Shown here piece after piece: positions 7,524 through 24,770 of a stretch of 45,701 bases of DNA. Both the position numbers and the translations under genes were made by a program. The notes below the pieces were generated by a model, which was not told the origin of the DNA, made no database searches, and saw only the letters and a list, made by a program, of their open reading frames with translations. This DNA is from a virus, in IMG/VR virus record IMGVR_UViG_3300028840_004433, positions 1-45,701 of that record. One strand, 5' to 3'. The number at the start of each line of letters is the position of its first letter. Positions within the stretch are counted from its first letter, which is position 1.

Positions 7524-8216
7524 ATGGCTAAAAAAATGAAATGGGAGAAAAAAATTGACAGGACTCGGGTTGATAATCAGCTTAAAGAGGCACAGCAAGA
7601 ATGGAGAGAGGCCCGGCAGAATATATTTGAACATCGCTCTTTTATCCCCAATATCTATTATGATGATTTCTTTAAGCTTTTTAAATTAAACGCAGAGATC
7701 CTTTTATTTGAGAGGGGAGAAAAGACAGAGTATAAAATTGATGATTATAATAAGTCAGCCCTTAGTTTTATCTGTACTTATCTCCAAAAATGTGAAGGTG
7801 TTGACCATAAGAAGGGAATAATGATTGTTGGGGATATCGGAACCGGAAAAACATTAATGCTTAAGACTGCTATAAAAATCATTGAAAAACATACAATAAA
7901 AAGATTTAAGCAGCTGCATTCTAAAGAAGTTGCCGAAGCTATTAAAGAAGCTGAAAGCGGTATCCGATCTTTGAAAAAGATGCCTATGCTTATTGATGAT
8001 ATAGGAAAGGAGCAAAAAGAAGCTAAAGATTATGGATCTGCTTTTAATCCGATCCCGGATCTTTTCGCTTTAAGGTGGGATTTCGGATCATGGACGTTCG
8101 CTACATGTAATTATAATTTTGATGATCTTGTGAATTTTTACGGAAGATCTACAGTTGACAGAATGAATCAAATGTTTAACATAATAACTCTTAAAGGTGA
8201 ATCAAGAAGAAAATAA
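7524..8216 (+). CDS. DnaC-like AAA+ ATPase, helicase loader
   Basis: 230 aa with a complete P-loop core: Walker A GDIGTGKT (103-110), Walker B MLIDDIG (155-161), sensor-1-like ATCNY (193-197) and an arginine-finger-like segment YGRSTVDRM (206-214). Order and spacing match DnaC/IstB-type loaders that deposit the replicative helicase on DNA. No phage helicase is seen, so it probably loads host DnaB. It follows the initiator-like gene by one base, and the next gene starts inside its end. Confidence 0.88.
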   Translation: MAKKMKWEKKIDRTRVDNQLKEAQQEWREARQNIFEHRSFIPNIYYDDFFKLFKLNAEILLFERGEKTEYKIDDYNKSALSFICTYLQKCEGVDHKKGIMIVGDIGTGKTLMLKTAIKIIEKHTIKRFKQLHSKEVAEAIKEAESGIRSLKKMPMLIDDIGKEQKEAKDYGSAFNPIPDLFALRWDFGSWTFATCNYNFDDLVNFYGRSTVDRMNQMFNIITLKGESRRK

Positions 8217-8676
8217 AGGAAATATTAAATGTAATACTTGTAAGAAAATTATATATTTTAACAGGGAAGCTAGTTTTATGAAATGTTCAAGATATCCTGA
8301 AGGACATTCTAGTTTATATGTAAGCTTATGTCAGCAATATGAAAAACAAGAATTTGAAGTTGTTCATATTTTACAGGTTAAAATTGAATCTTGGCTTAAG
8401 TGGTCATATGAAACTTTCGGTAAAACAGAATATATGCATATATCAAAAGCTTATCATTTAAAAGAGGAAGTCGATGAGCTTATTAAATCATTCAAAATGA
8501 TGGAAGATCCGGGAGAGGAAATTGCTGATTGTTTTATATTGCTTATGACAGCAGCTTTCCATTATGGGTATGATCTTGAAAAGATAGTTAATGAATGTGA
8601 TAAGAAGTTTGAAATACTTAAAAAGCGAGATTGGAACAAACCTGATGAAAACGGAGTTGTAAGACATAAAAAATAA
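8197..8676 (+). CDS. MazG-like dNTP pyrophosphohydrolase with N-terminal Cys motif
   Basis: 159 aa with a GTG start at 8197, overlapping the loader gene by 20 bp. The N-terminus has CNTC, a Cys at about 30 and a Cys at about 45, suggesting zinc. The C-terminal 100 residues follow the DUF550/all-alpha NTP pyrophosphohydrolase pattern: KAYHLKEEVDEL (metal-binding Glu pairs), EEIADCFILLMTAAFHYGYDLE, then KKFEILKKRDWNKPDENGVVRH. These enzymes hydrolyse (d)NTPs to monophosphates. In a phage this could reshape nucleotide pools or lower (p)ppGpp. Substrate not determined. Confidence 0.8.
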   Translation: MNQEENKGNIKCNTCKKIIYFNREASFMKCSRYPEGHSSLYVSLCQQYEKQEFEVVHILQVKIESWLKWSYETFGKTEYMHISKAYHLKEEVDELIKSFKMMEDPGEEIADCFILLMTAAFHYGYDLEKIVNECDKKFEILKKRDWNKPDENGVVRHKK

Positions 8677-12131: not shown

Positions 12132-12371
12132 ATGGGTATAAAAAAAACTGAATTAATAAAAATGACTTGTGATAGATGCGGTATTGAAACTGACCAAAGT
12201 CATTACAAGTATGAAATAAAGAAAATACAATCTTTAAAAATAGAATTAGCCGGTCTGTCATATGGTGGTGATTGGGGCGGTTCAACTATTGACTATATTA
12301 AAAATAAATGGTATTGTAATAAATGTACTCAGGGATTAATAGATTATCTAACTTTAAACAATAAGACATGA
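12132..12371 (+). CDS. small zinc-finger-like protein, 79 aa
   Basis: CDRCG (15-19) and CNKC (62-65) form two Cys pairs that fit a single zinc site bridging a beta-rich middle (GLSYGGDWGGSTIDY). The stop overlaps the HNH gene start (ATGA). Function unknown; it closes the GATC-poor island. Confidence 0.55.
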   Translation: MGIKKTELIKMTCDRCGIETDQSHYKYEIKKIQSLKIELAGLSYGGDWGGSTIDYIKNKWYCNKCTQGLIDYLTLNNKT

Positions 12372-12769
12372 ACGCAAAAGAGACCTTTAAAGATATAAAA
12401 TATTACGAAGGTTACTACCAAGTATCGGATCTCGGTCGAGTCAGATCTTTAAAAAGGACTATTATTGATAAAAACGGTATCCGGATCCGGATAAAAAAGA
12501 AGATCTTAAAGTTATCTATTGAGGCCCGAACCGGATATTTAAAAGTCAATCTTTGCAAGAACGGGAAAACTAAAACAAGGTATGTTCATAAATTAGTTGC
12601 TCAAGCATTCCACGATCATAAACCAAACGGGTATAGGAGAATAATTGATCATAAAAATGCTATTAAAACAGATAATAGGGCGATTAATTTACAAGAAATC
12701 TCTCAGTCAGAAAATATTAAAAAATCAAAGGCCGGTTATATGGAAAGCTCCGATAACTGTCCTTTTTAA
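12368..12769 (+). CDS. NUMOD4/HNH homing-type endonuclease
   Basis: 133 aa. The N-terminus FKDIKYYEGYYQVSDLGRVR is the NUMOD4 motif (DNA binding). The HNH region follows with VHKLVAQAFHDHKPNGYRRI and IDHKNAIKTDNRAINLQEIS, comparable to the usual VDH.NG...DNR..NL. Catalytic His and Asn are present, so it may be active. Such enzymes are mobile and nick or cut at one site to spread into relatives. It stands next to the GATC-poor accessory island. Confidence 0.85.
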   Translation: MNAKETFKDIKYYEGYYQVSDLGRVRSLKRTIIDKNGIRIRIKKKILKLSIEARTGYLKVNLCKNGKTKTRYVHKLVAQAFHDHKPNGYRRIIDHKNAIKTDNRAINLQEISQSENIKKSKAGYMESSDNCPF

Positions 12770-12778
12770 ATTAAAAAT

Positions 12779-13429
12779 ATGGGACTAAACAAACAATCAG
12801 GTAATATGTATGACTTCGTTACTCATACATGGAATACAATAAAAGGTAAATGTTTTCACGATTGCTCTTACTGTTATATGAAACGGTTTGATAATCAAAA
12901 AGACATCCGATTTGATGAAAAAGAACTAAAGACTGATTTAGGACAAGACAATTTTATCTTTGTCGGATCATCAAACGATATGTTTGCTGATAATATCCCG
13001 GATGAATGGATTAAAAAAACTTTAGATCATTGCTATAAATTCGATAATAAGTATCTGTTCCAAACAAAGAACCCAAGAAATATAAGAAGGATTTTAGTAG
13101 AAAAGAGTCATGTATGTGTAACAATAGAATCTAATAGATACTATGATCATATAATGAGAAATTCACCAAACCCAAACCAGAGATTTATAGATACAAGATT
13201 AATAAGACATCCTTTATATATCACAATTGAGCCTATAATGGATTTTGACTTGCATTTCTTTTTAAAAATGTTAGAATCTACAGGGCCAATACAAGTTAAT
13301 ATCGGAGCAGCAACCGGCGGACACAATCTCCCGGAACCGCCAAAAGAGAAAATTCTTGAATTAATAAAGGGGCTTAAGACGTTTACTAAAGTACATTTAA
13401 AATCAAATATTAATCGTTTAATTAAATAA
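12779..13429 (+). CDS. DUF5131-like radical SAM-type protein
   Basis: 216 aa. CFHDCSYCYM (25-34) gives the CxxxCxxC iron-sulfur motif (Cys25, 29, 32). Further family-like segments are FVGSSNDMFADNIPDEWI, LFQTKNPRN, TIEPIMDFD and NIGAATGG. It corresponds to phage Gp37/Gp68-type (DUF5131) proteins, usually longer, with unproven activity. Start is marked by TTTTTAAATTAAAAATATG. It follows the HNH gene and precedes ssb by two bases. A role in DNA repair or base modification is a possibility from the fold, not shown. Confidence 0.78.
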   Translation: MGLNKQSGNMYDFVTHTWNTIKGKCFHDCSYCYMKRFDNQKDIRFDEKELKTDLGQDNFIFVGSSNDMFADNIPDEWIKKTLDHCYKFDNKYLFQTKNPRNIRRILVEKSHVCVTIESNRYYDHIMRNSPNPNQRFIDTRLIRHPLYITIEPIMDFDLHFFLKMLESTGPIQVNIGAATGGHNLPEPPKEKILELIKGLKTFTKVHLKSNINRLIK

Positions 13430-15930: not shown

Positions 15931-16779
15931 ATGACAACAACAAATCAAGCAGACTTCTATTTCCCTGTTGAGGTGATAGATAACGAACACAAAACAAACC
16001 CTGAATATTCAAAGATCATTAAAGCCAACATAAAAGGCTACGAATGGCATTTGAATTATTGCTCTCCACGATATGAACTCGTTAAAAATGAAGACATTTT
16101 CCCGAATATTGAAGATGTCCTATCAAGCAATAATATCTCTTATGAGGCATCATATAAGATGATAAACCGAGTTCGATTCTATGCCGATTATATTTTAAAC
16201 GATGATGATTTCCTTCATACTATAGAAGGAACAAATGACAAAATCTATCCTAAATTATCAGTACAGCATTCTTATAACGGAATGACCAAGTATGCTATTA
16301 ATTTCGGATATTTCCGTTTAATATGCTCTAATGGTCTTGTTATTCCTATTCAGGAGATGAAAAAATATAACCTTAGTATTATAGGAAAACATACGGCCCA
16401 AATATTAAGCTCCTTTAATAAACTTGATGAGATGCTAAATAAATTCGTTGATAAGAAGCAACAAATCGGTCTTGCTATTACTGCTAAATATAAGCAGCTC
16501 ACTGATGTTTGGGTAACAAAACCCGAAGATCGATTAAAAGAGATCCTTGAAGGAACTAAGATCCGAGCAGTCGAAAATAAGAACTTTAATACAGTCGATC
16601 ATATCATGAATATAGTTATCGGAGAGGCCAATAATCAGGATCTCGGTTACGGGGGAAAAATTAATGATTGGCTTATCTATAACGGGATAAATCAGTACAT
16701 TAATGATGATGACAGATATAAGTCGGCCCCTGAGACAAGAGCAAAGAAGGATCAAGAAGTTTTATCATTTATGCTTTAA
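15931..16779 (+). CDS. DUF932 family protein
   Basis: 282 aa with the DUF932 pattern: a variable N-terminus, KYAINFGYFRLICSNGLVIP (about 125-145), a helical middle (HTAQILSSFNKLDEML) and a C-terminal segment ending KKDQEVLSFML. DUF932 proteins are common on phages and plasmids, with no proven activity; links to DNA handling are suspected from their neighbours. A structured hairpin follows. Confidence 0.78.
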   Translation: MTTTNQADFYFPVEVIDNEHKTNPEYSKIIKANIKGYEWHLNYCSPRYELVKNEDIFPNIEDVLSSNNISYEASYKMINRVRFYADYILNDDDFLHTIEGTNDKIYPKLSVQHSYNGMTKYAINFGYFRLICSNGLVIPIQEMKKYNLSIIGKHTAQILSSFNKLDEMLNKFVDKKQQIGLAITAKYKQLTDVWVTKPEDRLKEILEGTKIRAVENKNFNTVDHIMNIVIGEANNQDLGYGGKINDWLIYNGINQYINDDDRYKSAPETRAKKDQEVLSFML

Positions 16780-17247: not shown

Positions 17248-17533
17248 GAGGTATTTTTATGAGCCCGATATTGTTCCTCTTATGGAGCAATATACAAATG
17301 AAAGAATCTCGGAAATAGAGATATGTTGTAATTGTGGTCAGACATCGAATATCCCTTTTAAATGGCCGACAAATTCATGCTGCCGATTTATGAATAGAGT
17401 ATCTTTGAAAGATTATGCAAAGCTTTCTATTTATAGACCATATGACGAGTGGATTGAGATTATAAAATTATATGATCGCTCCCTTAAGTGGTCTAAATTC
17501 CAAAGGTTTTTAATTAAAACTTTTAAGATATGA
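17174..17533 (+). CDS. hypothetical protein with Cys motif, 119 aa
   Basis: Basic N-terminus, then a CCNC pair and a downstream CC (about residues 50-75) that could bind zinc, then a Tyr/Trp-rich helical end. The stop overlaps the ATG of the radical SAM gene, so translation is coupled and a functional tie is plausible but unproven. Confidence 0.55.
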   Translation: MENILEFLTGKKIRVITKKKKYRNERYFYEPDIVPLMEQYTNERISEIEICCNCGQTSNIPFKWPTNSCCRFMNRVSLKDYAKLSIYRPYDEWIEIIKLYDRSLKWSKFQRFLIKTFKI

Positions 17534-18252
17534 AGGAAGTTATATTTGAAGACCTTATAATTGAGGTGACAAGACGCTGTAATCTTAGATGTGATCATTG
17601 TTTAAGAGGGGAGCAAGAAGATATTGATATTGCAGATGTTTATTATGATACTGTATTTGCTAAAATCGATTATATAGAAACCCTAACTTTAACGGGGGGT
17701 GAACCATCTCTCGTTCCTTATAGAATAAGAAGGATATTAAACTCGCTTATACATAACAAGGTTGAAATAGGATCTTTCTATATTGCTACTAATGCCTATG
17801 ATATACACGATGAATTTATAAGAGTCCTTATGGATTTATATTTATATAGCAATGATCGTGATATGTGCCGAGTTGATATTTCAAATGACTATTTTCATGA
17901 TAATAATTTTCATGAATCAGAAAAGTTAATGATGTTTAAATTTGCAGGGAATAAGTATAAAGATAGCGGACATGATTACTATAATTTTCAGAATATCATC
18001 AATGAAGGTTTTGGTTCAAATGTTTCTATTCCCGGACGAAGTTATAATGCACATTGCCTTTTTGTTGAAGAGGAAGATGATATGATAAAATTTCATGGCG
18101 AAGTAATCTATCTAAATGCAGAAGGGAAGATATTAATCGGTTGTGACTATTCCTATGAAAGTCAACGGTATAATGAAATATGCTCTTATAACGAAGATAT
18201 ATTAAAAGAATTAAAAGAAATAATATTTAAAACTCAAGAAAATGAAAATTAA
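17530..18252 (+). CDS. radical SAM enzyme
   Basis: 240 aa. CNLRCDHC gives the CxxxCxxC cluster (Cys17, 21, 24) after an IEVTRRC lead, and LTLTGGEPS (53-60) is the SAM-binding GGE motif. Later Cys residues (HC at about 175, GC near 203) might hold an auxiliary cluster or substrate. It is not a canonical QueE by motif spacing, and no queuosine-pathway partner is seen. Radical chemistry on a nucleotide or peptide is possible; the substrate is unknown. It overlaps the next (ATPase) gene by 11 bp, a strong hint of joint function. Confidence 0.85.
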   Translation: MKEVIFEDLIIEVTRRCNLRCDHCLRGEQEDIDIADVYYDTVFAKIDYIETLTLTGGEPSLVPYRIRRILNSLIHNKVEIGSFYIATNAYDIHDEFIRVLMDLYLYSNDRDMCRVDISNDYFHDNNFHESEKLMMFKFAGNKYKDSGHDYYNFQNIINEGFGSNVSIPGRSYNAHCLFVEEEDDMIKFHGEVIYLNAEGKILIGCDYSYESQRYNEICSYNEDILKELKEIIFKTQENEN

Positions 18253-20471: not shown

Positions 20472-21836
20472 ATGAAATTATCAAAATTGAAACTTAATCC
20501 GGACAACCCTCAAGTGTTCGGAGATCTTGAAAAACTTAAAAATTCAATAAAAGAATTTCCGAAAATGATGAAACTGAGGCCATTGGTTTATGACCCGGCA
20601 ACAGGTTATGTCTTAGGGGGAAATAAACGCCTTGTCTGTCTCCGAGAATTAGAATTTAAAGAGATTCCCGATGAATGGGTCCGGTCAGCAGATGAACTTA
20701 CCGAGGAAGAAAAGAAAAGATTTATAATTGCCGATAATCTCTTGTGGGGAGAATTCGATTGGGATAAATTAAAAGACGAATGGGATATTGATGAACTTGA
20801 AAATTGGGGTTTGGATGTTCCTAATTTTGATGCTTCTGAGGATGAATGGCAGGGGATGCCTGATTTTGATAAAGCAGATGAATCTTTTAAGATTGTTATT
20901 CATTTTGATGATGAAGAGACAAGAGAAAAATATGCAGAAGAAAATAAGATGCAATTCGTTAAGACCGAAAAAAGGACTTGGTCAACATGGTTTCCTTTCC
21001 GAGAAAGAGATGACTTAACTTCTCTAAAGTATCAACCCGAGGAATCGCAAGAAAACGAGTTAACTGACCTTCAGAAGACAAATTATCCTATTTATGTACT
21101 ATCAAAAGATAGGGCCGGGGGGTCGACTACCGCAGATATTTTAATTAAAAATAATATAGAATTCGAGTTCGTTGTTGAAGAACAAGATTTCAAATCCTAC
21201 CTTGAAGCATATCCTAAAACAGATATTATTGTACTACCTAAAAATGATCAGGGGATTGCATATGCCCGAAACTTCTGCATTGAACATTCTAAAGAAATGG
21301 GATTTGAATATCATTGGCAATTAGATGATAATATTAAAAATTTTCAATTCAAAGATGCCGAAAATAAAAGGAATACTGTTGATCCTTTTGGTATGCTAAG
21401 ACACACAGAAGAGCATATCGATCAGTATATGAATATCGGGGGTGCTTGTTTCTCTCATGGAGCTTTTGCATTTGGCTTTAAGAACGATATTGATTATAAT
21501 AAGATGATATTTTGCTGTCAGCTTATAAATAACTCGATAGAAACCCGGTTTAAAAAGGGAACAGCCGAAGATGTTGATTTCTCTGCACAGCTCCTTACAG
21601 ATGGTTGGTGTTCTATTATATTCAGAACATTTTTAATTAATAAACCTAAGATTGGAACACAAAAAGGCGGTAACGAAAACGAGTATAAGGAAGGTGGTAG
21701 AGAGTCCCGAAATAAACAGCTCCAAAAAGATTGGCCCAGATGGTTTAAGGAATATAAGAAAAACGGTGAGTCAAGAATAAGACCAAGCCGTATATGGTCA
21801 TCTTTTAAGCAAAGACCTATTTTGAAAGATGAGTAA
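20472..21836 (+). CDS. ParB-like domain fused to a TET-associated glycosyltransferase
   Basis: 454 aa with two modules. Residues 1-115 are a ParB/Srx-type domain (GYVLGGNKRLVCLRELEFKE, then FIIADNLLWGEFDWDKLKDEWD), as seen in phage DNA-modification proteins. About 138-195 is a linker domain (RTWSTWFPFRERDD). From about 205 the TAGT fold starts: NYPIYVLSKDRAGGST, VVEEQDFKSY, AYARNFCIEHS, HWQLDDN (DDN at 285-287, a metal/sugar-nucleotide motif), then AEDVDF (365-370) and TQKGGN (396-401). TAGTs transfer sugars to 5-hydroxymethylcytosine in phage DNA. It overlaps the second TAGT gene by 8 bp. Acceptor and sugar donor are not known here. Confidence 0.88.
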   Translation: MKLSKLKLNPDNPQVFGDLEKLKNSIKEFPKMMKLRPLVYDPATGYVLGGNKRLVCLRELEFKEIPDEWVRSADELTEEEKKRFIIADNLLWGEFDWDKLKDEWDIDELENWGLDVPNFDASEDEWQGMPDFDKADESFKIVIHFDDEETREKYAEENKMQFVKTEKRTWSTWFPFRERDDLTSLKYQPEESQENELTDLQKTNYPIYVLSKDRAGGSTTADILIKNNIEFEFVVEEQDFKSYLEAYPKTDIIVLPKNDQGIAYARNFCIEHSKEMGFEYHWQLDDNIKNFQFKDAENKRNTVDPFGMLRHTEEHIDQYMNIGGACFSHGAFAFGFKNDIDYNKMIFCCQLINNSIETRFKKGTAEDVDFSAQLLTDGWCSIIFRTFLINKPKIGTQKGGNENEYKEGGRESRNKQLQKDWPRWFKEYKKNGESRIRPSRIWSSFKQRPILKDE

Positions 21837-22749
21837 TTTTAAAATAAAATATCCGATCTATATAGTAAGTAAAGGGAGACATGATTGCTGCCTTACTGCT
21901 AATTTTATGATAAAAGACGGTATTGATTTCCTTATAGCTGTTGAACCTCAAGAATATGATCTTTATAAGGAATTTTATGATGATAAATATCTTCTTAAAC
22001 TCCCCTTTCAGGATCTCGGTCTCGGATCCTATCCGGCAAGGAATTATTGTTGGGAGCATTCTATAAAAAACGGACATGAAAGGCATTGGTGCTTTGATGA
22101 TAACATCTACGGTATAAGGAGACTTCATAAAGGCAAAAGGATACCGGTAAACGGTACAATCGGAATAAGTATAATAGAAGAATTTACAGATAGATATACT
22201 AATATCGGGATCTCAGGATTTGAGTATATGAAATTCGTAACGAATACTACAAAAAAACCATATTCCGTGAATACTCATATCTATTCGGCTATGCTAATGA
22301 ATAACTCGATGCCTTATAGATGGAGATTAAAATTCAACGAGGATGTTGATCTATGCTTACAGGTACTTCATAATAAACTCTGCACAGTCTCCTTTAAAGC
22401 TTTTATGATTCATAAAGTTTCTACTGTAGCAAAAATGAAAGGCGGTAACCAAACTGAGCTTTATAAAGGGAATAACCCTAAACAGAAACTTATAAAAGCT
22501 AAAACACTTGAAGATACATGGCCCCAATATGCTAAAACCGTTATAAGGTATAAACGGCCTCATCATTATGTAGATTGGAGAAAACACTTTAAATTTAAAT
22601 TAAAAAGAAGAACAGATATTGACTGGGAAGAAATTAAAAAAAAGAAATTTGATATAAAACTAACAGAAGTAAAAGAAGTACAAGCAGAAACACTTAAAAA
22701 GCTTAAAAATGAGTATAAAGAAGGAAGATCTGAAAAAAATAATAAATGA
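21829..22749 (+). CDS. TET-associated glycosyltransferase (TAGT)
   Basis: 306 aa, a stand-alone TAGT. Motifs: YPIYIVSKGRHDCCLTA (8-24), IAVEPQEYDLY (36-46), LGLGSYPARNYCWEHS (63-78), RHWCFDDN (85-92), YRWRLKFNEDVDL (163-175) and AKMKGGN (201-207). The same DDN, EDVD and KGGN residues occur in the fused TAGT upstream, so both look active. Two different TAGTs could add two sugars in sequence or act on different acceptors. The C-terminal 70 residues are Lys-rich and helical, possibly for DNA binding. It overlaps the small gene at 22709 by 41 bp. Confidence 0.9.
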   Translation: MSNFKIKYPIYIVSKGRHDCCLTANFMIKDGIDFLIAVEPQEYDLYKEFYDDKYLLKLPFQDLGLGSYPARNYCWEHSIKNGHERHWCFDDNIYGIRRLHKGKRIPVNGTIGISIIEEFTDRYTNIGISGFEYMKFVTNTTKKPYSVNTHIYSAMLMNNSMPYRWRLKFNEDVDLCLQVLHNKLCTVSFKAFMIHKVSTVAKMKGGNQTELYKGNNPKQKLIKAKTLEDTWPQYAKTVIRYKRPHHYVDWRKHFKFKLKRRTDIDWEEIKKKKFDIKLTEVKEVQAETLKKLKNEYKEGRSEKNNK

Positions 22750-22888: not shown

Positions 22889-23311
22889 ATGGAAGATAAA
22901 AAGAAACATAATCCATATGATAATTTTAAGGGCAAAGAGAATACAAACGGATTCGATAAAAACCCTGAGAACATCGGTAAAGGTCGAAAAAAAAAGATCC
23001 TTACTATTCTAAAAGAACAGGGATTTTCAAAGGATGATGTTCATACAGCTTTTAAGGAGTTAATATGGTATAATATAGGAGATCTTAAAGAAGTCTTTGA
23101 AGATAAAGAGAAACCGATAATTTTAAGAATAGTCGCGAATCAATTAAAATTAGCCTTACAAAAGGGTGAAATGAATAGGATAAAAGAGATAGTTGAGCAT
23201 ACAATAGGAAGGCCGATTCAAAAAACAGATATAACATCCTTAAATACCCATGTTCAGGTAGATGAGGAAACCGTACAAGAAATTAAAAAGATGTTTGATG
23301 AGCAAATTTGA
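22889..23311 (+). CDS. terminase small subunit-like protein
   Basis: 140 aa directly before the large subunit. The N-terminus is Gly/Asn/Lys-rich and probably flexible (NPYDNFKGKENTNGFDKNPE). GRKKKILTILKEQGFSKDDV is a helix-turn-helix-like DNA-binding region, followed by helices with LKLALQKGEMNRIKEIVEHT and GRPIQKTDI, a stretch common in Bacteroidota phage small subunits. It would recognise the packaging site and load the motor. Overlaps the large subunit by 14 bp. Confidence 0.75.
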   Translation: MEDKKKHNPYDNFKGKENTNGFDKNPENIGKGRKKKILTILKEQGFSKDDVHTAFKELIWYNIGDLKEVFEDKEKPIILRIVANQLKLALQKGEMNRIKEIVEHTIGRPIQKTDITSLNTHVQVDEETVQEIKKMFDEQI

Positions 23312-24770
23312 TTGGCAGACATTAACGGATGAACAGATAGCGGTTATAAAAGTCCTCACCTTACAATCGCTCCTTACCTTTACTCGCTTTTGGTTTAAAG
23401 TCTTACGAGATAATAGATTTATAGTAAATTGGCATCATAAAGACATTTGTTATTCTCTTGAGGAAGCAAGTCAGTATAAATATGAATTTCTTAATATAAA
23501 TATTCCCCCCAGGCATTCAAAAACAGAATTAGTCGGGATAAATTGGCCGGCTTGGTCATTAGCCAAAAATGCAAAAGCAAACTTTCTTTATATTACTGCC
23601 TCGGATGAGTTAAGATCTGAAACTTCAATCCGGATCCGGGACATTATACAGCACCCTCTTTATTTTAGATTATACGGAGTTAAGATCCGAAGAGATCAGT
23701 CGGGGAAGAATCTTTGGAAAACAAATGAAGGTGGCGGCCTTAAGACAGCAACTATTTTCGGTCAGATAACAGGGTTCGGGGCCGGTCGATTAGTCGATAA
23801 GGATCTCGTTGATTATATAGAGTTATTTGAAGGGGCAATAATTCTCGATGATATAAACAAAATCGAGGATGTGAAAGACGATCTTAAGAAGAATAAGAAA
23901 ACCTTAAGCACGATATTTACGACTATCCTATCGCGTAAAAACAATGAAGAAACACCAATTGTAAATATACAGCAGAGAGCCGGTCATAATGATGCTACAA
24001 AGGTCTTACTACAACATTATGCTGATCAGCCGGATAAAGTAAAGAATATTGTAATGCCGGTATTAAAAAACGGAAAGCCACTTTGGCCCAAGAAATTAAG
24101 TCTTGAGAAAATAAATCAATTAAAGACTTCGCCGTTTACAAAAATGATCTTCTATTCTCAGTATATGCAAGATCCGAAACAAGAGGAAGGCGGTAAATTC
24201 AGGAGAGAGTATTTCAAGAAAGCTACAAAAGCAGATCTTCCTAAAAACTTGGAATGGAAAATATATGTAGATGGCGCTTATACAGAAAAGACCGAGAACG
24301 ATCCGACCGGAATAATGATTGCAGCTAAATATAAAGAGAATATCTATATTAAGTTTGCAATAAGCAAATGGCTCGAACTCCCGGAATTAATAAAATATTT
24401 TGACGCTCTTTTTAATTCTCAGTCACTTCCAAAAAATTGTCGTATCTTTATCGAACCAAAAGCTAGTGGGAAATCGTTAAAGCAACACTTAAAAAAGAAG
24501 GAATATGTTGCTATTGAAATAAGCTCAGATTGGGCCAATGAGAGTAAAATGACGAGAGCGAATGCCGTACTTCCGTATTGTGAGGCCGGCTTTGTTTATT
24601 TAGTAGACGGATATTGGACGGAACATTTTATTGATCAATTGGTTTTATTCCCGAATGATGAGCATGATGAATATGTAGATCTAATTAGTTATTTTTTAAT
24701 AGATCACTATCTTATCCAAAAAGGAAGTGATCGCCCAAGAGTAGAGAATTTATCAGATATTGGATTATGA
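23298..24770 (+). CDS. terL: terminase large subunit
   Basis: 490 aa from ATG 23298. The ATPase has IPPRHSKTEL (69-78, Walker A of the PRxxxKT type), FLYITASDEL, and a Walker B-like AIILDDI (180-186). The nuclease part has YVDGAYTEKTENDPTG, FIEPKASGKSL and EYVDLISYF, with Asp residues suited to the RNase H-like metal site. It packages and cuts concatemeric DNA into proheads. The packaging mode (pac or cos) cannot be read here. Confidence 0.92.
   Translation: MSKFDWQTLTDEQIAVIKVLTLQSLLTFTRFWFKVLRDNRFIVNWHHKDICYSLEEASQYKYEFLNINIPPRHSKTELVGINWPAWSLAKNAKANFLYITASDELRSETSIRIRDIIQHPLYFRLYGVKIRRDQSGKNLWKTNEGGGLKTATIFGQITGFGAGRLVDKDLVDYIELFEGAIILDDINKIEDVKDDLKKNKKTLSTIFTTILSRKNNEETPIVNIQQRAGHNDATKVLLQHYADQPDKVKNIVMPVLKNGKPLWPKKLSLEKINQLKTSPFTKMIFYSQYMQDPKQEEGGKFRREYFKKATKADLPKNLEWKIYVDGAYTEKTENDPTGIMIAAKYKENIYIKFAISKWLELPELIKYFDALFNSQSLPKNCRIFIEPKASGKSLKQHLKKKEYVAIEISSDWANESKMTRANAVLPYCEAGFVYLVDGYWTEHFIDQLVLFPNDEHDEYVDLISYFLIDHYLIQKGSDRPRVENLSDIGL

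Follow-up and report, generated by a model that had tools for sequence, protein, structure and literature searches.

Two TAGT genes upstream from the terminase

The window, that is, the whole 45,701-nucleotide stretch of the IMG/VR virus record IMGVR_UViG_3300028840_004433, contains two intact ORFs at exactly 20472-21836 (454 amino acids) and 21829-22749 (306 amino acids), both starting with ATG and overlapping by 8 nucleotides. A preliminary description of this DNA had read them as two TAGT glycosyltransferases, one fused to ParB, and this assignment was confirmed by two Pfam matches to PF20691 (TAGT), both far above the curated cut-off of the family (27.5 bits), and by the ParB-like N-terminus of the longer protein. 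The features of the locus are collected in Table 1, where TAGT-a designates the TAGT domain of the fusion protein and TAGT-b the stand-alone protein that follows it. Along the strand, the ParB fused to TAGT-a is followed by TAGT-b, a small ORF with no significant Pfam match, and the terminase large subunit (TerL).

Table 1 Features of the ParB-TAGT-terminase locus in the window
Feature	Position	Strand	Evidence
ParB N-terminal (ParB/Srx fold) domain, residues ~1-120	20472..20831	+	PHROG 620/498/940; AlphaFold2 (AF2) model and PDB matches
Linker domain, W-x-G-M-P-x-F motif, residues ~121-200, TAGT associated	20832..21071	+	Conserved in ParB partners
TAGT-a (first TAGT), GT-A glycosyltransferase domain fused to ParB	21072..21836	+	PF20691, residues 205-400, E=1.7e-33, 116.8 bits; first-of-pair clade 96/89
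TAGT-b (core TAGT), stand-alone GT-A glycosyltransferase	21829..22749	+	PF20691, residues 8-206, E=7e-41, 140.9 bits; AF2; Foldseek; core clade 99/95
Probable terminase small subunit (TerS)	22889..23311	+	Position and length only; between TAGT-b and TerL, as in relatives
Terminase large subunit (TerL)	23262..24770	+	PF17289 Terminase_6C, E=1.9e-06

The residues DDN, EDVD, and KGGN, singled out in the preliminary description, were found in both proteins, as LDDN / AEDVD / QKGGN in TAGT-a and FDDN / NEDVD / MKGGN in TAGT-b. An alignment of 78 TAGTs gave 10 invariant residues (T23, E39, Y46, R71, D90, D91, D172, G205, G206, and Y212, numbered as in TAGT-b), all of them present in both window proteins. 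Structural modeling, which had also been proposed as a check, confidently predicted a GT-A fold for TAGT-b (AlphaFold2 mean pLDDT of 93.6 and pTM of 0.91) with the DD(N), ED, and GG(N) motifs intact, and by alignment the active-site residues are kept in both proteins. The best solved-structure matches of the model in Foldseek were the GT-A enzymes TarP, LARGE1, and heparosan synthase. A sequence search of the PDB for TAGT relatives retrieved none, and no NCBIfam model matched the TAGTs.

The N-terminus of the fusion protein matched PHROG families of ParB and ParB-methyltransferase proteins (~1e-19) as well as the N-terminus of annotated phage DNA methylases. The AF2 model of residues 1 to 200 (mean pLDDT of 87.6) had ParB-CTP/CDP structures as its best PDB matches (Foldseek probability of 1.00, E of ~1e-3), and the aligned ParBs share a G-x-x-R-like nucleotide-binding box in which G50 is invariant (61/61) and R53 is found in 54 of 61. 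The domain is therefore predicted to adopt the ParB/Srx fold with a conserved nucleotide-binding box and may bind CTP. ParB and TAGT are separated by a linker of ~65 to 80 residues, which also precedes the TAGT, on its N-terminal side, in PTm1, Kuja, Vibrio phages, and proteobacterial loci. We considered whether it could be a general DNA-methyltransferase domain; as PHROG searches with the linker only gave no significant match, it is treated here as associated with TAGT only.

Elsewhere in the window, a dATP/dGTP pyrophosphohydrolase-like gene (8197-8676; PF04447, E=2.4e-07) codes for a nucleotide-pool enzyme, a NUMOD4/HNH homing-endonuclease-like gene (12368-12769) precedes a DUF5131 gene that matches radical SAM weakly (12779-13429), and a DUF932 protein is encoded at 15931-16779 (E=1.3e-13).

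A conserved module with a variable slot

Searches based on TAGT recovered 80 viral and 51 bacterial-genome loci besides the initial ones. A ParB/linker ORF was located upstream from TAGT in 113 of 142 TAGT loci, and TerL within seven genes downstream in 82 of the 142, counts limited by the many loci cut by the locus end and referring to a set that is not a random sample of TAGTs, since it was found from the TAGT-b clade. The reverse search, starting from ParB plus linker, added 59 loci, with a TAGT within 3 kb in 57 of them; the other two end just after ParB.

The gene order follows a simple grammar: ParB plus linker, an optional slot, the core TAGT, an optional NDP-sugar epimerase (36 loci), TerS, and TerL. 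The slot is either empty or holds a second TAGT (18 loci, not counting Kuja), an FkbM methyltransferase (8 loci), a GT32-like glycosyltransferase (7 loci; 4 more have one of a second kind close to TAGT), or a different SAM methyltransferase. In the window, the module takes its two-TAGT form. Along these lines, the earlier suggestion that two TAGTs in a row point to a two-step sugar appears reasonable, since the slot is occupied in other loci by an FkbM-type methyltransferase or by another glycosyltransferase. The maximum likelihood tree, built with fewer rows and a mixture model because a tree including T6 gave long-branch joins, placed TAGT-a in a clade of first-of-pair TAGTs (96/89) and TAGT-b in the clade of core TAGTs (99/95). 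The two genes are thus not the product of a recent duplication.

The TAGT gene is under purifying selection in relatives of the window, with dN/dS values of ~0.10 to 0.12 among Escherichia coli variants, 0.03 between Erwinia and Pantoea, and 0.08 between two marine phages.

Some loci present variations around this order. An Erwinia prophage (L113, 7184-9241) has MptE-like, GT9-like glycosyltransferase, and SAM methyltransferase genes directly upstream from ParB-TAGT, which may be extra sugar-tailoring genes. Four loci, proteobacterial and similar (L105, L111, L120, and L139), carry, adjoining the linker-fused TAGT, another, distantly related TAGT-like gene (cluster c47; PF20691 E=1.8e-08 in L105). 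In another locus (L003, 112-1598), a linker-less ParB is followed by a 315-amino-acid protein with a weak GT-B-like match and then by terminase-like genes. This protein is perhaps another glycosyltransferase in the TAGT slot; its identification by eye as a T4 beta-glucosyltransferase-like enzyme replacing TAGT was discarded, as Pfam, PHROG, and PDB gave only the weak GT-B-like match.

Distribution among phages

A search with the TAGT of the Lactobacillus gasseri phage jlb1 retrieved Lactobacillus delbrueckii phages (c5, phiLdb, Ld17, LL-Ku, and PMBT4), Rac-type phages of E. coli and Salmonella, the Haloarcula virus HHTV-2, the Nocardia phage NTR1, Porphyromonas prophages, and T4-sized Vibrio phages, and all of these TAGTs exceed the PF20691 cut-off. 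ParB-TAGT pairs were also found in marine phages. The order ParB, TAGT, terminase can be followed in the annotations of jlb1, c5, the Rac-type phages, HHTV-2, and Porphyromonas, the terminase of HHTV-2 lying a few genes beyond TAGT. The TAGT of NTR1 adjoins TerL and is preceded by a gene without a Pfam ParB match.

Search for an acceptor-making enzyme

The preliminary description had noted that no recognizable acceptor-making enzyme accompanies the two TAGTs, and this held in the profile searches that it had proposed (TET/JBP, 5mC methyltransferase, and hydroxymethylase). A Pfam scan of nearly all window ORFs found no TET, cytosine methyltransferase, or thymidylate synthase/hydroxymethylase, and direct searches of the window with PF12851 (TET/JBP), PF00303 (thymidylate synthase/hydroxymethylase), PF00145 (C5 methyltransferase), and PF01555 (N4/N6 methyltransferase) were all empty. 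The record is classed as "linear" and opens inside an ORF (the first one is open at its 5' end), so the window may miss some genes, and, given this possible incompleteness, absence from the window is on its own weak evidence.

We therefore looked at relatives as well. The viral loci come from 46 virus records that total 814 kb, 13 of these records being longer than 25 kb. TET (PF12851), thymidylate synthase/dCMP hydroxymethylase (PF00303), and radical SAM (PF04055) were each found in 0 of the 46, and C5 methyltransferase (PF00145) in one, as a partial match. The positive controls did match, namely, TET in P12024L and thymidylate synthase in Kuja, PTm1, and Aeh1. The complete genomes of c5, HHTV-2, jlb1, and NTR1 and the Rac-type record have no TET, thymidylate synthase, or C5 methyltransferase. 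When the window, the Rac-type record, HHTV-2 (first 50 kb), c5, and jlb1 were compared, only ParB and TAGT were common to the five; no other family was found in more than three, and those that reached three resemble a helicase loader and a Cro-like regulator. The lack of a recognizable acceptor maker extends to the entire ParB-linked group and is not peculiar to the window.

The window codes for a radical SAM protein ~2.2 kb upstream from the TAGT pair (17530-18252; PF04055, E=1.2e-08), which had been put forward as a possible maker of the acceptor. This candidate was rejected: it lies outside the module, as shown by the absence of the family from the 46 relatives, and it had no homologue among the relatives of the initial TAGT search. 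Besides the window, a radical-SAM-like neighbor was seen only in a contig of a Desulfosporosinus MAG (L102, 9992-11805), where it follows the TAGT. Another proposal, that the host supplies the modification, seems unlikely, since hosts as different as Escherichia, Lactobacillus, Nocardia, Porphyromonas, and Haloarcula would all have to do so.

Relationship with known modification systems

The Nonlabens phage P12024L (gp26-gp28) resembles the window in that a TAGT of a phage lies beside DNA-modification genes. However, the TAGT of P12024L adjoins a TET (PF12851, E=2.8e-29) and an annotated methyltransferase and has no ParB partner, whereas in the window and its relatives ParB is present and TET is missing. 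The family is not tied to TET, contrary to the preliminary description, which had linked TAGTs to a TET-derived acceptor. The T2/T6 beta-glucosyl-HMC-alpha-glucosyltransferase (ggt) also belongs to PF20691, and its acceptor is glucosyl-hmC obtained via dCMP hydroxymethylase (PMC13216743). In the T6 genome, the TAGT gene adjoins the dCMP hydroxymethylase gene (gp42). Unlike the window TAGTs, ggt works after a hydroxymethylase and an alpha-glucosyltransferase and has no ParB; its sequence is very distant and was not recovered by the TAGT HMM built here.

A similar arrangement outside the ParB-linked group was found in the large myophages Kuja (Vibrio), PTm1 (Tenacibaculum), and Aeh1 (Aeromonas), which have a linker plus TAGT like that of the window (two in tandem in Kuja), with ~36 to 40% identity to TAGT-b, and nest in the tree among ParB-linked prophage TAGTs. 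In contrast to the window, they have no ParB domain and carry genes of the thymidylate synthase/hydroxymethylase family. The ParB-DNA methyltransferase fusions of phrog_498 share with the window a ParB attached to a DNA-modifying enzyme, but their catalytic partner is a methyltransferase. ParB adjoining DNA methyltransferases and the carboxymethyltransferase CmoX has been described (PMC12783734); in the CmoX system the partner of ParB is a carboxymethyltransferase and in the window a glycosyltransferase.

Solitary phage TAGTs, without an alpha- or beta-glucosyltransferase, were described in 288 of 753 phage genomes and suggested to be novel transferases (PMC13216743, 2026); the main text of that study does not mention ParB, terminase, or Lactobacillus. 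In the part of the literature covered, a search for ParB with TAGT or DNA glycosylation retrieved no description of the module. The ParB-TAGT-terminase module is widespread but apparently unreported, its priority not being certain.

Putative function and alternative explanations

We think that the module probably glycosylates the phage's own DNA, guided by ParB, on an acceptor other than the 5hmC produced by TET or hydroxymethylases. The enzyme would be held on DNA by the linker and by the ParB domain, which may work as a CTP-gated clamp. TAGT-b would transfer the first sugar from an NDP-sugar, and TAGT-a would attach another sugar or create a branch, a tailoring role that in relatives would fall to a methyltransferase, a different glycosyltransferase, or an NDP-sugar epimerase. 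ParB plus linker and TAGT lie beside the terminase genes, and glycosylation could take place before or during packaging. The acceptor might be a group already present in unmodified DNA, on which TAGT acts directly, or the product of an unrecognized enzyme, and candidate benefits are restriction evasion or a packaging mark.

DNA appears to be the best-supported substrate on several grounds. In one locus (L067, 1730-4540), ParB plus linker-TAGT lies beside a PF01555 N4/N6 DNA methyltransferase that is itself fused to a ParB of the same type, and the window ParB itself matches the N-termini of phage DNA methylases. The occurrence of linker-TAGT in phages with hydroxymethylase-family genes (Aeh1, PTm1, and Kuja), nested among ParB-linked TAGTs, points in the same direction, as does the T6 TAGT, which glucosylates glucosyl-hmC in DNA (PMC13216743 and PMC13390438).

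A DNA acceptor does not follow from the fold, and protein is the main alternative. The TAGT might transfer its sugar to a protein, such as the ParB partner or one from the host, with ParB acting as adaptor or substrate. Enzymes like those encoded near TAGT (sugar methyltransferases, epimerases, and GT32 enzymes) also take part in the synthesis of protein or surface glycans. The E. coli TAGT is named "GREB1-related" in NCBI PGAP, and the eukaryotic protein GREB1 is reported to be a protein O-GlcNAc transferase (PMC12645433). A protein acceptor would also fit the lack of a base-modifying enzyme, and the only other protein common to five diverse genomes is ParB, which makes it the sole conserved candidate for a phage-protein substrate. 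Nevertheless, the fusion of the same type of ParB to a DNA methyltransferase, the presence of related TAGTs in phages with hydroxymethylase-type genes, and the action of the T6 TAGT on DNA (PMC13216743) make us regard a protein substrate as unlikely.

We give slightly less credit to a hidden classical step, in which an unrecognized enzyme of the phage or host hydroxylates or hydroxymethylates a base that the TAGTs afterwards glycosylate, as they do in TET-containing or T-even phages. The T6 TAGT does use a handle made by another enzyme (PMC13216743), and many window ORFs have no assigned family. However, radical SAM is absent from the relatives, and only ParB and TAGT are common to the five compared genomes, so this scenario requires either a different hidden enzyme in every lineage or a host enzyme that E. 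coli, lactobacilli, and Haloarcula all possess. It is very improbable that the genes are nonfunctional remnants of an earlier modification pathway and now lack a substrate. K-12 and many other E. coli strains have lost the TAGT, and some copies of ynaK, the ParB gene of the Rac-type module, are marked as pseudogenes, but the intact active-site residues of the 78 aligned TAGTs, dN/dS values of ~0.1, and strong synteny across bacteria and an archaeal virus are hard to reconcile with decay.

Returning to ParB-guided glycosylation of phage DNA, a more specific version is that a TAGT delivered by a ParB clamp adds the sugar directly to a canonical base or another normal group of DNA, with no prior hydroxylation. 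We propose this only tentatively, as it seems more doubtful than DNA glycosylation in general. It would involve the same chemistry in bacterial and archaeal phages and in Rac-type E. coli prophages, perhaps only at ParB-bound sites or spreading from them, marking the DNA for packaging.

To our knowledge, all described DNA glycosylation needs a hydroxyl handle provided by TET/JBP or a hydroxymethylase-type enzyme. The present module has neither handle maker, yet it is conserved, active site included, in phages of L. delbrueckii, in the Rac-type prophages of E. coli, and in a haloarchaeal virus. Should DNA be the substrate, this would mean either a new acceptor chemistry or the direct glycosylation of a normal base, and, if true, it would bear on restriction and CRISPR evasion, phage engineering, and DNA-modifying tools.

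The module in E. coli genomes

Rac-type ynaK plus TAGT was found, with at least 80% coverage, in 887 of 5,426 complete E. coli genomes (~16%). As the genes are present in these genomes and also in lactobacillus phages of 31 kb, the substrate of the module is within reach of tests in ordinary laboratory strains. K-12 derivatives retain only ~212 bp of ynaK, joined to ydaY, and in some other strains TAGT is intact but ynaK is broken. One Rac-type prophage region (L156) carries as cargo an ADP-ribosyltransferase and AB-type toxin subunits, as annotated by PGAP.
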